This document shows positions 1-4,802 of a DNA stretch of 48,201 nt, one piece after another. The translations under genes were made by a program, and so were the position numbers. Under the pieces are notes generated by a model. The model did no database searches. It saw only the letters and a program-made list of their open reading frames with translations, and had not been told where the DNA came from. The stretch is from Acidobacteriaceae bacterium. Its GTDB lineage: Bacteria; Acidobacteriota; Terriglobia; Terriglobales; Acidobacteriaceae. The stretch spans positions 1 through 48,201 of the forward strand of contig JANXUR010000004.1 of the NCBI GenBank assembly GCA_025356095.1, given 5' to 3'. Numbering within the stretch: position 1 is the stretch's first letter; each line of letters starts with the position of its first letter.

Positions 1-1868
1 TGCATAACCAGGGCGTCAGGAAAGCCATCGTCGTAGTTCCCGAGAAAGCCATCGGCGCGAGCTTTCACAGCGAGCCGCTGTCGAAATACGGATTCTTCAC
101 GGATTGGGAAGTCGCACCGCAGTGGAATCTCTGCAATGCTCCAGGGGATGACAATGGCGGAAAGGTGAACTCCGTCAAAACCTTCCTAGAAGGTACGGAT
201 CGCATATTGGTGTGCACTCACGCCACGTTCCGATTCGCCGTTGACCGCTTTGGCGTCGAGATGTTTGACGGCTGTCTTGTCGCCGTGGATGAGTTTCACC
301 ATGTGAGCGCGAACCCCGACAATAAGCTCGGAATGTATCTCGGCCAATTCATGGCACGTGACAAGGCGCACATCGTGGCGATGACCGGCTCCTACTTTCG
401 AGGCGACGCAGATCCCGTGTTATCGCCCCATGACGAATCCAGGTTCGAGACGGTGACCTACACCTACTACGAGCAGCTCAATGGCTACCAGTACCTCAAG
501 CAGTTGAACATAGGGTATTACTTTTACACCGGTTCGTACCTGGAGAAGGACACGCCGGAAGACCAGACAATATTTGATGTCTTGGAAGACGACGAAAAGA
601 CCATTATCCACATCCCGAACGTCAACTCGCGCGAAAGCACGAAAGACAAGATCAAGGAGGTCGAAAATATCCTCCACGGCTTAGGCGAATGGCAGGACAC
701 GGACCCCAAAACCGGCTTCTACCTGGTGAAAACGAAAGAGGGGAGGGTGCTGAGGATCGCTGATCTGGTTGATCCTAGCAAACAGAGTGTTGTATCGGCG
801 GCGCTAAAAGACCCGGCGATCAAGACAGACCGTGACTACGTTGACATCATCATCGCGCTGGGAATGGCAAAGGAAGGCTTTGATTGGATTTGGTGCGAAC
901 ACGCTCTGACCGTAGGTTATCGGTCTAGCCTTACGGAAATCATCCAGATCATCGGACGGGCGACCCGCGATGCAAAAGGCAAGACGCATGCACGGTTTAC
1001 GAACTTGATCGCCGAGCCGGATGCTTCCGAAGAAGCCGTAACGGAGGCGATCAACGACACGCTAAAGGCCATTGCGGCCAGTCTGCTCATGGAGCAAGTG
1101 CTTGCGCCCAGGTTCAATTTCACCCCGAAAACCTCTGCAAGCGGCCCCGTGGATGGATTCGACTATGGTGACGGTGGCTACGATCCAAAGAAGCCCAATG
1201 TTGGCTTCAACCAACAGACGGGCCAATTCCAGATAGAGATCAATGGCCTGACTGAACCACAGAGCAAAGAAGCGACCCGCATCTGCCAGGAAGACCTCAA
1301 TGAAGTGATCGCCGCCTTTGTACAGGACAAGACTGCTCTTGAGCGAGGCATGTTCGATAAAGAGGCAGTACCTGAGGAGCTGACACAGGTCCGCATGGGA
1401 AAAATCGTGAAGGATAAATACCCGGAACTGACCGATGAGGACCAGGAAGCAGTGCGTCAGCATGCGATTGCCGCGTTGACTCTGACTCAGCAGGCAAAAA
1501 AGATTCTGAATCAAGAATCGACAACCGGCAGCAACACCGCCCTCATCGACGGTGTCCGCCGATTTGCGTTGAGTGTGACCGAGCTGGACATTGACCTCAT
1601 CGACCGGATCAATCCATTCGGGGAAGCTTACGCGATCTTGGCGAAGGCCATGACGGAAGAGAGTCTAAAGCAAGTCGAGGCGGTTATCGCGGGTAAAAAG
1701 GTCAGTCTCACCCTCGAAGAGGCTCGCCAGTTAGCGAAGCGCGCCCTCAAATTCAAACACGAGCGCGGCAGGCTGCCATCGCTCACATCTACTGATCCGT
1801 GGGAAAAGAAAATGGCAGAAGGGATTGCATTTTTAGCCCGCATGAAAGCGGAGGCCGTCAATGGCTGA
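1..1868 (+). CDS. DEAD/DEAH (DExH) box helicase, 5' truncated by the window edge
   Basis: The frame is open from base 3, so the true start lies outside the window and about 621 codons are visible; an internal GTG at 165 is not the start. Visible SF2 helicase signs: a motif Ia-like stretch VVPEKAIGASF at the very beginning, motif II DEFHH (DExH type) inside VAVDEFHHV, motif III-like MTGSYF, and a motif VI region QIIGRATRDAKGK. The Walker A motif must lie upstream. The remaining 300 or so C-terminal residues are charged, helical and unrecognised. It should be an ATP-driven nucleic-acid translocase in the cytoplasm. The stop overlaps the next gene's ATG by 8 bases (1861-1868), so the two are translationally coupled. 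Helicase plus nuclease is typical of phage-defence or DNA-processing modules, but I cannot name a described system. Confidence is high for the family, low for the role. Confidence 0.88.
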   Translation, partial: HNQGVRKAIVVVPEKAIGASFHSEPLSKYGFFTDWEVAPQWNLCNAPGDDNGGKVNSVKTFLEGTDRILVCTHATFRFAVDRFGVEMFDGCLVAVDEFHHVSANPDNKLGMYLGQFMARDKAHIVAMTGSYFRGDADPVLSPHDESRFETVTYTYYEQLNGYQYLKQLNIGYYFYTGSYLEKDTPEDQTIFDVLEDDEKTIIHIPNVNSRESTKDKIKEVENILHGLGEWQDTDPKTGFYLVKTKEGRVLRIADLVDPSKQSVVSAALKDPAIKTDRDYVDIIIALGMAKEGFDWIWCEHALTVGYRSSLTEIIQIIGRATRDAKGKTHARFTNLIAEPDASEEAVTEAINDTLKAIAASLLMEQVLAPRFNFTPKTSASGPVDGFDYGDGGYDPKKPNVGFNQQTGQFQIEINGLTEPQSKEATRICQEDLNEVIAAFVQDKTALERGMFDKEAVPEELTQVRMGKIVKDKYPELTDEDQEAVRQHAIAALTLTQQAKKILNQESTTGSNTALIDGVRRFALSVTELDIDLIDRINPFGEAYAILAKAMTEESLKQVEAVIAGKKVSLTLEEARQLAKRALKFKHERGRLPSLTSTDPWEKKMAEGIAFLARMKAEAVNG

Positions 1869-2667
1869 ACCCCGTTTCACGGATGATGACGATGCGCTTC
1901 TTGCCGAACTTGGCGTAGAGGTTGAAACACAGGCAACGTCCGCCCATTCGCCCCGCGAGGAACGTATAATCGCAGGCTTTGAGGACATTGAGCGATTCTT
2001 CGAGCAACACGACCGTGTTCCGGTCAACGCGGAGACCAATGACATTTTCGAGCGCATGTACGCTGTCAGGCTGGATAGGATTCGCGCGTCCGACGAGTGC
2101 CGCGAGGTTCTGGCGAATCTCGACAGGCACGGCTTGCTCCAGGGACAGCCAGCACCTGTGAAAGCAGGCGAAGATGAACTCAGCGACGACGCTTTGCTTG
2201 CGGAACTCGGGGTTGCTGAATCTCGCGAAAATGACGTCACAAAACTTACCCATGTGAAGACCCGCGCCGAGATTCGCGCAGCCGAGGACGTAGCAAAACG
2301 AGCGCCGTGCGCCGACTTCGATAAGTTCAAGCCCCTGTTTCGCGCTGTACAGGACGATTTGAAATCCGGCAGGAGAAAGGGACGCCGCTTCAAAGTAGAC
2401 GCTAGCATCGAGCAGGGCGAGCTTTTTATCCTGGGTGGGCAGATTGCCTTTGTTGCCGAAGTCGGCGAGGCGATCAAAACATCGGTTGGCAAGCCCGACG
2501 CCCGCCTTCGCGTCATTTATGACAACGGCACGGAAAGCGACCTGTTGATGCGGTCGCTTCAAAGGGCTTTGTACAAGGACGAAGCCGGTCGCCGCATAAC
2601 CGACCCGTCGCTCGGCCCACTTTTCTTCGATACGGAGGAAGAGGGCGGGGAAGCTGGAGTTCATTAA
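1861..2667 (+). CDS. N-terminal part of a helicase-associated GIY-YIG protein (268 aa), ends at an in-phase TAA
   Basis: A 268-residue acidic protein starting inside the helicase stop region. No catalytic motif is recognised. It contains an internal near-repeat: DDDALLAELGVE near residue 10 and SDDALLAELGVAE near residue 116. The second half (about 130-250) has a compact fold-like stretch with EQGELFILGGQIAFVAEVGE and LLMRSLQRALYKDEAGRRITDP. The stop TAA at 2665-2667 is followed, in the same frame, by one codon and then the ATG of the next reading frame, which carries the GIY-YIG domain. From memory of the family, these two pieces usually form one protein of about 400-430 residues. So this is either the front half of a gene broken by a nonsense change or a genuinely split two-subunit version. 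Likely DNA-binding or partner-binding, function unknown. Confidence 0.75.
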   Translation: MAEPRFTDDDDALLAELGVEVETQATSAHSPREERIIAGFEDIERFFEQHDRVPVNAETNDIFERMYAVRLDRIRASDECREVLANLDRHGLLQGQPAPVKAGEDELSDDALLAELGVAESRENDVTKLTHVKTRAEIRAAEDVAKRAPCADFDKFKPLFRAVQDDLKSGRRKGRRFKVDASIEQGELFILGGQIAFVAEVGEAIKTSVGKPDARLRVIYDNGTESDLLMRSLQRALYKDEAGRRITDPSLGPLFFDTEEEGGEAGVH

Positions 2668-2670
2668 GAT

Positions 2671-3135
2671 ATGGACGGCTCGCGCCCATTATTTTCCGAT
2701 ATGCCGGAGGATGGCGACGTCGGAACAGGTCGAATCTATGTCTTGCGCAGCAAGTCGGATCATCCGACGATCAAAGAACACCGGAATGTCATTCACAAGA
2801 TCGGCGTAACCGGCGGTGACATCAAGAAACGGCTTGTCAACGCGAAGCTCGACCCGACGTTTCTGATGGCTGAAGTTGAAATCGTCGCCACCTATGAACT
2901 CTCCAACATCCACCGAGCGCGGCTGGAAAACCTTATCCATACCTTTTTTGAACCCGCTCGCCTCAATCTCACGATTACGGACAGGTTTGGCAACTCCATA
3001 GTCCCTCGGGAATGGTTTCTCGTGCCCCTATATGCGATAGACGACGCCATCGCAAAAATCCGTTCGCATGAGATTGTTAAGTACAGGTACAATCCGGCGA
3101 CTGCTTCGCTGGAGCTTAGCCCTTCCGCGACATAA
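2671..3135 (+). CDS. GIY-YIG nuclease domain protein (T5orf172-like), 154 aa
   Basis: Contains the GIY-YIG nuclease signature: R-I-Y at residues 21-23, K-I-G at 43-45 within IHKIGVTGG, a candidate catalytic Arg at 54 (IKKRL) and a candidate catalytic Glu at 86 (RLENLIH). This matches the T5orf172 branch of the superfamily, which cuts one DNA strand using Tyr, Arg and a metal-binding Glu. It lies in the same frame as the upstream 268-codon frame, separated by TAA and GAT. A GGAG at 2656-2659, 11 bases before ATG 2671, could allow independent initiation. The nuclease domain itself looks intact, so a stand-alone protein may still be active. It is the last gene of the module with the helicase; the next 370 bases are gene-free. 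Confidence 0.8.
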   Translation: MDGSRPLFSDMPEDGDVGTGRIYVLRSKSDHPTIKEHRNVIHKIGVTGGDIKKRLVNAKLDPTFLMAEVEIVATYELSNIHRARLENLIHTFFEPARLNLTITDRFGNSIVPREWFLVPLYAIDDAIAKIRSHEIVKYRYNPATASLELSPSAT

Positions 3136-3509
3136 ATCTGAAGAGTCCCCCCGCCCGTGTTTCTGGCAGGCGGCCCCCGGTACTTTCTGCAGGGTCCGGC
3201 TCGTACAGCACCTTGAAACGCACAGCGAGACCTGCGCCCATGCGGGTACATTTGCGGGTATGTGTCGCTAGTATTTTGCTATCTGCATTACAATCAGTCA
3301 CTTATGGGTGGATATGAATCCCTCTCCCGCAAAAATCGTTAAGCTTCATTCTTTGCATAGAATTATCGTTCCACAGCGTCCCGTGAGGTACGATGGCGGC
3401 CGCGCGCAGTGCGGACGGCAACTGTTGGCACCTGCGACGCAGGCTGCACACAATACTTCTGCGGTCTCGTGACGCCGTGCGCGTTTGCGTGTAGTGCGGT
3501 GCCCCGCGT
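3136..3509. other. gene-free boundary between the helicase/nuclease module and core genes
   Basis: No supported gene. The stretch holds a short direct repeat GCGGGTA (about 3242-3261, 12-base period) and a near-perfect palindrome CCTGCG-A-CGCAGG at 3431-3443. The base composition shifts here from the flatter usage of the module to the GC-rich, GCG/CGC-heavy usage of the genes to the right. This would fit an island edge, but I see no integrase and no second copy of an attachment sequence. Confidence 0.4.
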
Positions 3510-4508
3510 TTACAGCGCTGAGCGAACTTCCAGCAGCATCTTCAGCGTAGCGCCGGGTGCGTGGCTCATGCGGTCGAGTGCCTGCTGGCCGTGCTCAAGC
3601 GGCGTGCGCTCTGTCCAAGGCGCGAGATCCACTTTGCCGGTAATGAGCAGGTCAAGGGCGCGGCGGAAGTCGCCGGGAGTGTAGGCGAACGACATCACTA
3701 CCCGGTGTTCCTTGCGAATGCTGGCGACGAAGTTGACTTCGCTTTTTTGTGCACCCATGCCGAGCAACGCCACCATGCCGCCGGGACGAGTCAGGTCGAA
3801 GGCCATTTGCCGGGCGGCGGCACCGCCGCTGGCATCAATCACTAAATCAAAGCCGCGCCCGGCAGCGTGCAATGCTGCTGCGAGGCCTTCGGCGGTGCTG
3901 GTGTTGATGGTGGCGGCTGCACCCAATTGTTTTGCGACGGCGAGCCGAGCGTCATTCACGTCTGTCAATAGAATGTCTTGCGCCCCGTTGAGCCGGGCTA
4001 CAGATAATGCCAGCGAACCCATGGTCCCTGCCCCAACTATCGCTAGCCGGAACATGGGTGCGGGGGCGGCGATGCGAAACAGGTGCACAAGATTGGCGAG
4101 CGGCTCCGCCAACACGGCGCTGGATGAGGGCAGAGAATGGGGCAAATCGTGAATCTGCGATTCGGGAATGGAGACGAACTCGGCAAAGGAGCCTTGTGTG
4201 TTGCCTAACCCGAGCAGCCGCCAAGAAACGCATTGATTCTGCGCGCCCGAGAGGCACGACTCGCAGTGGCCGCAACTGATCAGCGGATTTACCACGACGC
4301 GGCGCCCATCGTCCAACCAACCCACCAGTTCATGGCCCAGAATCAAGCCGGGCTTGCGCAGAGCGCTGTGGCCAAGAAAGCCGGAGATGTCTGACCCGCA
4401 GATTCCGGTGAGCTGCACGGTGACTTCGACTTCGCCCGTCGCAGGCTGGGGGCGGGGTGCATTCTGCATTTCTACGTGTTCCGGCGCGGTGTAAACAAGA
4501 GCTCGCAT
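3510..4508 (-). CDS. zinc-dependent medium-chain alcohol dehydrogenase
   Basis: A 332-residue MDR-family NAD(P)-dependent dehydrogenase. Catalytic zinc ligands are visible as Cys37 (ICGSD), His59-Glu60 (LGHE) and a later acidic residue (AEPLAN). Structural zinc cysteines are at 79, 82, 85 and 93 (CGHCESC...C). The Rossmann motif is VGAGTMG near residue 145. The gene order of motifs resembles sorbitol or threonine dehydrogenases; the substrate cannot be read from sequence. I chose the ATG at 4506-4508 (MRALVYTAPE) because the family starts there; upstream codons give a Cys/Trp-rich tail unlike the family. No good Shine-Dalgarno is visible. It is a lone gene facing the module on its left. Confidence 0.85.
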   Translation of the reverse strand: MRALVYTAPEHVEMQNAPRPQPATGEVEVTVQLTGICGSDISGFLGHSALRKPGLILGHELVGWLDDGRRVVVNPLISCGHCESCLSGAQNQCVSWRLLGLGNTQGSFAEFVSIPESQIHDLPHSLPSSSAVLAEPLANLVHLFRIAAPAPMFRLAIVGAGTMGSLALSVARLNGAQDILLTDVNDARLAVAKQLGAAATINTSTAEGLAAALHAAGRGFDLVIDASGGAAARQMAFDLTRPGGMVALLGMGAQKSEVNFVASIRKEHRVVMSFAYTPGDFRRALDLLITGKVDLAPWTERTPLEHGQQALDRMSHAPGATLKMLLEVRSAL

Positions 4509-4802
4509 AGGGCAGGAGTATAGCGCAATTTCGCAGTGCAGTCGCCATTTTGGCACGCAATGTCGCCACTTTACCTTAGGGGTGCGGCAGCAGGGGGTCA
4601 CGCTTCAAACTGGGCACTCATGTTGCAACTAAGGGCGGAGTATATACCGCTTGCGGCGTGGCGGGAGCCAAGTTACCCTAAGTGGGGGCGCCATCCCAAG
4701 GGCTGTAACCGAAGGTTGACCACTCGCCCGCCCCGCCGTCTAACCGGTAAGCTTGGGTGTGTTTGGTGGGCGGCGGTCTGATGCAGGATTTGAGAAGCAG
4801 CC
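4509..4802. other. divergent intergenic region, no gene seen
   Basis: It separates the leftward dehydrogenase from the rightward permeases. It contains GCGG-N8-CCGC around a TATATA core near 4636-4651, a possible promoter or operator, but nothing stronger. Confidence 0.3.

Follow-up and report, generated by a model that had tools for sequence, protein, structure and literature searches.

The dnmA(yeeA)-yeeB-yeeC operon is a known, poorly understood gene set that has been described in Bacillus subtilis (PMC7261158, PMC9973331). As reported there, DnmA methylates the non-palindromic site GACGAG on one strand (GACGmAG, N6-methyladenine), the genes yeeB and yeeC are its neighbours in a syntenic arrangement, and deletion of dnmA causes no growth defect. 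In Vibrio crassostreae, deletion of dnmA or yeeB leads to higher sensitivity to some phages, as cited in PMC9973331. The stretch of DNA analysed here, referred to as the window, is the entire contig C16 (48,201 bases) of a 3.53 Mb, 120-contig genome of an Acidobacteriaceae bacterium, and its left edge (position 1) is therefore where the assembled piece stops. Positions 1-3135 form the 3' end of such a dnmA(yeeA)-yeeB-yeeC operon and so represent an incomplete member of this kind. We consider it likely that they are what is visible of a horizontally acquired, ATP-dependent restriction-modification system, in which YeeC is either made as two chains or inactivated. The operon is identified from gene order, family names and one annotated YeeB rather than from an alignment to the B. 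subtilis proteins. It resembles the B. subtilis operon, as described in PMC9973331, in gene order (seen in the relatives of the window), in its MmeI-like methyltransferase, in its superfamily 2 (SF2) helicase and in its C-terminal T5orf172/GIY-YIG protein; unlike that operon, the window contig is without dnmA and its YeeC is split. The V. crassostreae DnmA-YeeB-YeeC consists of the same three families, a likeness taken from the description in PMC9973331. The split of YeeC occurs in no other relative examined.

Three forward-strand frames occupy positions 3-3135 (open reading frame list and translations), and apart from a TAA at 2665-2667 no stop interrupts this stretch. The first frame (3-1868, 621 residues, open at the contig edge) is, by its identity to relatives, the 3' part of yeeB, the SF2 helicase of the operon. 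Its translation contains the boxes DEFHH (Walker B) and QIIGRATRD as well as the C-terminal helicase region. The frame aligns to residues 65-682 of the 682-residue helicase of locus L084; about 64 N-terminal residues lie beyond the contig edge, where the Walker A box is located in relatives. A helicase of the YeeB family, as expected of DnmA-YeeB-YeeC, is thus present: identity is 73-80% over almost the entire frame against 80 bacterial loci, and 66.9% against a co-linear plasmid gene annotated YeeB (H36). Within its own genome a full-length YeeB query matches on C16 alone. A DNA helicase family of PHROGs matches the frame at 1e-06, and Pfam gives a sub-threshold helicase signal together with a sub-threshold pseudomurein-binding repeat. 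Foldseek with the AlphaFold model of YeeB retrieved SF2 helicases including EcoR124I HsdR (E 5.8e-05) at TM-scores of about 0.2; this model comparison supports membership of SF2 and nothing finer. Sequence searches of solved structures gave no convincing match for either YeeB or YeeC.

Relatives were collected by a one-per-species genome scan, which gave at least 579 confirmed YeeB stretches, the best 80 being retained (L004-L083), and by a tblastn search of plasmids with the yeeB frame (E 1e-5). The latter matched 264 records, of which 179 cover 80% or more of the query and 118 are predicted to be conjugative; a feature named YeeB is present in one record among the 40 matches listed. The operon is found on plasmids and in unrelated phyla, and 2 of 50,697 phage records were matched, both partially. 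Altogether 89 loci were compared (80 from genomes, 3 from plasmids and 6 from the same family). Of the 74 loci that extend 4 kb upstream of yeeB, 72 have a methyltransferase there (YeeA, at least 800 aligned residues), the other 15 loci having too little sequence to judge. In all 87 loci with all matches, yeeC begins, by its expected start, no more than 60 bp from the end of yeeB. All four plasmids examined are annotated in the order DNA methyltransferase, helicase, GIY-YIG nuclease, and three of them have one to three genes between methyltransferase and helicase.

All five Pfam MmeI domains are present in each of the three relatives' YeeA scanned, and one of these proteins matches the solved MmeI structure 5hr4 at E 2.3e-139 with the match beginning at MmeI residue 104. 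The nuclease residues of MmeI, which we take to be D70, E80 and K82, lie before this point. Among the YeeA proteins of 73 relatives (three of which gave short frames only), the N-terminal 185 residues contain no [DE]xK pair of columns that each reach 70% conservation, and a loose D-x(8-20)-[DE]-x-K pattern within the first 110 residues is seen in five. Judged on these 73, a conserved N-terminal PD-(D/E)XK nuclease motif as in Type IIL/IIG enzymes is missing, and therefore the nuclease of the system should come from YeeC. YeeA is similar to MmeI and the Type IIL/IIG enzymes in its methyltransferase, target recognition and C-terminal domains and in the one-strand methylation published for DnmA; it differs in having no conserved nuclease motif, so that cutting would fall to separate helicase and GIY-YIG proteins. 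In PADLOC, the YeeA proteins of L084 and L004 match REase_MTase_IIG over their full length despite the unconserved nuclease motif. In one family genome (L103, G156:C90:49374-52130) the search reported a YeeA match with one in-frame TGA.

The yeeB stop and the next start share eight bases, ATGGCTGA (1861-1868), an overlap suggestive of translational coupling of yeeB and yeeC. The second frame (1861-2667, 268 residues, ending in TAA) corresponds to the N-terminal and middle domains of YeeC, being 67% identical to L004 across residues 1-267 of the query and aligning with three plasmid YeeC proteins; a Pfam scan of this frame gave no match. The GIY-YIG nuclease domain follows as a separate frame of 154 residues with its own ATG (2671-3135), which is in the same phase and begins one codon past the stop. 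It matches Pfam MUG113 (E 2.6e-14) and T5orf172 (E 1.1e-11), presumably both members of the GIY-YIG clan, and two PHROGs families of unknown function (5.1e-07 and 7.1e-04), and its Arg54 and Glu86 are invariant in a six-row alignment. The C-terminal T5orf172/GIY-YIG part of YeeC is therefore present, with the protein laid out in two frames. In relatives YeeC is usually one chain: it is a single protein of 392-416 residues in 29 aligned relatives, and its parts share one frame in 82 of 83 loci and likewise in 6 of 6 family loci when matches are held against the frame list. The window departs from this by its TAA (2665-2667), yet the split is better seen as a variant than as a ground for exclusion from DnmA-YeeB-YeeC, and the one-chain form is perhaps not defining. 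The one exception among the 83 loci, L065 (3405-3575), looks broken, as its YeeC match ends after 66 residues in a 99-residue frame with about 2 kb of contig remaining. On two Klebsiella plasmids (L120:5001-5486 and L121:4001-4396), C-terminal remnants of YeeC with no listed gene adjoin transposase genes of IS1/IS5 and IS26/ISApu1.

These results bear on a preliminary description of the stretch, which had proposed a defence or DNA-processing module made of a helicase translationally coupled to a GIY-YIG protein. The module is borne out as YeeB and YeeC, and the helicase, the eight-base overlap and the residues Arg54 and Glu86 all stand; the GIY-YIG site, placed there in the coupled protein, belongs to a separate frame after the TAA. 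The pair, which had been matched to no named system, can be named as YeeB and YeeC of dnmA-yeeB-yeeC and belongs to what is in relatives a triple with the methyltransferase first. Upstream partner genes had been described as cut off, and the contig does end inside yeeB. It had also been reasoned that relatives occurring mostly alone in core genome positions, or a housekeeping helicase, would speak against such a module; neither was seen here, core or accessory position being judged by the patchy distribution within the family. The comparison with defence profiles recommended there gave weak, partial matches for the window frames in PADLOC 2.0 (best: PbeA, E 0.0022; PDC-S57, E 0.0012), likewise for two relatives, and YeeB and YeeC match no named system model of PADLOC 2.0 as judged without its cut-offs. 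NCBIfam gave nothing near its cut-off for either protein. Since YeeB and YeeC fall below that cut-off and the YeeA of two relatives looks like Type IIG, genome surveys may count this operon as something else.

The stop is located in a linker (2615-2731) where the window YeeC has 23 extra codons, the stop included, at the place where the three plasmid YeeC and others read GPLF...SGTIYVLR. The stretches flanking the stop are alike at a lag of 69 bases (2615-2662 and 2684-2731; 30 of 48 bases identical). No other sampled window position equals this at lag 69, and 3 of 1903 other bins do at in-frame lags of 45-99, the lag of 69 having been picked after the alignment was seen. An imperfect, old duplication in the YeeC linker therefore seems likely. 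The only other longer linker belongs to L028, from a Burkholderiaceae bin, which has 19 additional residues and no stop and falls in the same nine-row tree group as the window (support 84). In the L004 YeeC model, residues 251-265, which hold the linker, have a predicted local distance difference test (pLDDT) score below 50 and lie between the folded middle domain and the GIY-YIG domain. The YeeC model had no Foldseek match at E <= 0.001; a weak SH3/EF-P-like match to the middle domain was not used. The sequence GGAG is present at 2656-2659, eleven bases ahead of the ATG of the GIY-YIG frame, and with this ATG one codon past the stop a restart of translation would be possible. Departures from conserved columns (97% conserved in the other rows) are seen at 3 of 274 columns in YeeB, 1 of 46 in the N-terminal part of YeeC and 1 of 38 in the GIY-YIG domain; 27, 34 and 26 of 87 other rows, respectively, have as many or more. 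All three frames thus keep the conserved residues and give no sign of long decay. Functional fission, a recent loss or a sequence error may each explain the split. A YeeC naturally split at its linker would provide a handle for testing whether the GIY-YIG domain acts in trans.

The distribution of yeeB within the family is patchy. A match is found in 9 of 200 family genomes and 9 of 79 genera, the window's own genome included: six have a full or near-full yeeB (its own, G062, G125, G126, G163 and G164) and three have it in pieces (G156 as two contig-end pieces, G023 as 63 residues and G090 as 70 residues). In a smaller family draw it was found in 2 of 61, its own genome and the G023 fragment. 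A quick tree of 88 YeeB sequences places the window protein closest to that of a Nitrosomonas bin (L004, 82%) rather than to its own family; Pseudomonadota and Chlorobiota share this group, whose support is weak. The family row L099 is a long one, and its position is uncertain. The six family rows need 4 changes in this tree, a number forced by its starred branches. The patchy distribution and the tree conflict support horizontal acquisition of the operon, and with it the transfer that the preliminary description had thought plausible. GC content is 54.5% in the first 3135 bases, lower than in any of the 420 other, overlapping stretches of this size tested in the contig (minimum 55.8%, mean 59.3%). 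GC at third codon positions (GC3) is 66.5, 62.3 and 63.0% in the three frames, against 69.8% (standard deviation 2.1, minimum 64.9%) in 16 other long frames. Of the flatter codon use and base composition noted earlier, the base composition does stand out, with the lowest GC of the contig; the yeeB frame, by its GC3, is above that minimum and within the range of the other frames. An island edge near 3135 is plausible.

A further feature of the relatives is a slot between methyltransferase and helicase. Among 85 of the 89 loci with both ends visible, the gap between the YeeA stop and yeeB does not exceed 100 bp in 34, whereas it is more than 250 bp in 51; it reaches up to 1500 bp in 40 of the latter and is longer in 11. 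Locus L025 is counted among the 51, its gap being unreliable since its YeeA is an inner fragment. No comparable gap was seen between yeeB and yeeC in the relatives. Examples of the slot are L084:7399-7812, L085:8018-8800 and L119:2812-3750 (loci L004-L100 were surveyed). The 73 spacer frames of at least 90 residues, which were called mechanically and include some antisense ones, form many groups with a largest size of eight. Pfam matched seven of ten hand-picked spacer frames, the matches being RhuM, SLFN_AlbA_2 with HATPase_c_4, DUF1016/YhcG, DUF3800, PDDEXK_4, HEPN and BrnT toxin, and five further slot genes had no Pfam match. In PADLOC, among ten spacer frames of which eight are shared with the Pfam set, three matched the phage-defence candidates PDC-S05, PDC-S02 and PDC-S26 over most of their length, one frame matched several models partially and six matched none. 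On a Synechococcus plasmid the slot contains toxin-antitoxin genes. What the slot holds thus often varies from locus to locus, with unrelated genes that include ones of the defence or toxin-antitoxin type. Genes of this type are also embedded in Type I operons. According to a remark in PMC9973331, an uncharacterized family near dnmA could be an additional member. A literature search of titles and abstract openings, limited to open-licence papers, found no publication on the slot, which deserves a survey of its own.

From this anatomy, the operon probably marks the DNA of its host cell and cuts invading DNA that lacks the mark. DnmA, an MmeI-like adenine methyltransferase, would mark one strand of an asymmetric host site, as published for B. 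subtilis, and on unmarked foreign DNA it might act as the site sensor. YeeB, the SF2 motor, could be loaded at the site and travel along the DNA. YeeC may be anchored by its N-terminal and middle domains while the flexibly tethered GIY-YIG domain nicks or cuts, perhaps when two complexes meet. In this genome YeeC would be made as two chains by stop and restart at the flexible linker, or would be inactivated by the stop, and dnmA would lie off the contig. When a single strand carries the mark, replication gives one daughter duplex without it, and an enzyme that is to be safe would therefore be expected to require either two sites or a partner complex, an argument by analogy with Type III and Type ISP enzymes. 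These enzymes combine one-strand methylation logic with an SF2 motor to which a PD-(D/E)XK nuclease is fused; the present operon resembles them in the first two respects and differs in carrying a GIY-YIG nuclease on a separate protein. It is tempting to speculate that this represents a distinct class of ATP-dependent restriction-modification system, with one-strand marking by a nuclease-less MmeI-like enzyme, a helicase and a GIY-YIG nuclease on separate proteins, a place between methyltransferase and helicase where back-up defence or toxin genes can be exchanged and, here, a nuclease of two chains formed by stop and restart in which GIY-YIG is a removable part. We regard this wider proposal as tentative and rather doubtful.

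Several observations weigh against a horizontally acquired, working restriction-modification system. Helicase profiles match YeeB weakly, and the AlphaFold models have low mean pLDDT (61 for YeeB, 73 for YeeC). Two loci have no full YeeA within 10 kb, namely L025 (a 123-residue fragment) and L056, where yeeB and yeeC are present and no methyltransferase match occurs upstream. In the YeeB tree the family label needs 4 changes, where shuffled labels need 5.9 on average and 3 of 500 shuffles are as low; this tighter clustering leaves room for some shared history of YeeB within the family. Two YeeA queries, the second of which found the family genomes G164 and G156 at E 0, had no match in the 120 contigs of the window's own assembly; with the contig ending in yeeB, dnmA and the first 64 or so yeeB codons must lie in an assembly gap or be lost. 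Contigs also end within yeeB in G156 (C90 and C61) and G090, suggestive of an assembly problem with yeeB. The accounts of the B. subtilis operon report that transformation was not restricted and that single deletions made no difference with three phages (PMC7261158, PMC9973331), and it is called a relic by its authors and judged inactive (PMC9973331). Finally, the in-frame stop in yeeC could have left the nuclease inactive.

These points lead to the strongest alternative, a decaying remnant in which the nuclease has been killed by the stop, or dnmA has been lost, the genes being in the course of disappearing, as has been suggested for B. subtilis, whose YeeB and YeeC are said to miss C-terminal stretches (PMC9973331). 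The window YeeC is the only one with a linker stop among the relatives examined, its assembly yields no YeeA, and broken copies exist elsewhere, such as the L065 YeeC and the Klebsiella plasmid remnants beside insertion sequences. However, the three frames keep their conserved residues with no other stop in 3-3135, and this stop falls in a linker that is disordered in a relative's model, with a start codon one codon later. A remnant is therefore possible, though we lean away from it. An error of sequencing or assembly at the stop, with YeeC being in truth a single chain whose linker is longer, is unlikely. The stop-free, 19-residue longer linker of L028, from the same part of the tree and at the same place, would fit such an error, but nothing within the sequence indicates one.

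The operon could also serve as a maintenance or addiction module of mobile elements rather than in phage defence, with loss of the methyltransferase exposing DNA to the nuclease. The many plasmid records that match YeeB, including the 118 predicted to be conjugative, and the toxin-antitoxin genes inside the operon on the Synechococcus plasmid are in line with this. The absence of a growth defect upon dnmA deletion in B. subtilis, as reported, and the raised phage sensitivity of the V. crassostreae deletions, as cited in PMC9973331, argue against it and make this reading improbable, although the two roles are not mutually exclusive. A stand-alone helicase-nuclease pair with no methyltransferase, to which the lack of YeeA in the assembly and at L056 might point, is very improbable given the YeeA upstream in 72 of 74 loci and a contig that ends inside yeeB. 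The restriction-modification system is thus the preferred reading. The split nuclease is a usable oddity, but the window contains the last part of the operon only.

To the right of the operon, Rfam gave nothing near its gathering score on 2900-3700, and promoter and terminator scans of 1-3700 performed no better than on shuffled sequences. Beside the permease homologue, none of 11 family loci (L105-L115; about 1.5 kb searched) has a match to the ADH gene (3510-4601), and therefore no empty site can be defined at the right flank. A tRNA or attachment (att) site at the right edge was considered because 3316-3331 looks like the 3' end of a tRNA; this sequence occurs once in the genome, an exact-match search without a positive control found a tRNA-like form of it in none of 150 family genomes, and the candidate was dropped. 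A double GCGGGTA, GCGGGTACATTTGCGGGTA, is located at 3242-3260; it occurs once in the genome, and among 118 loci it is confined to those from the window's own genome.

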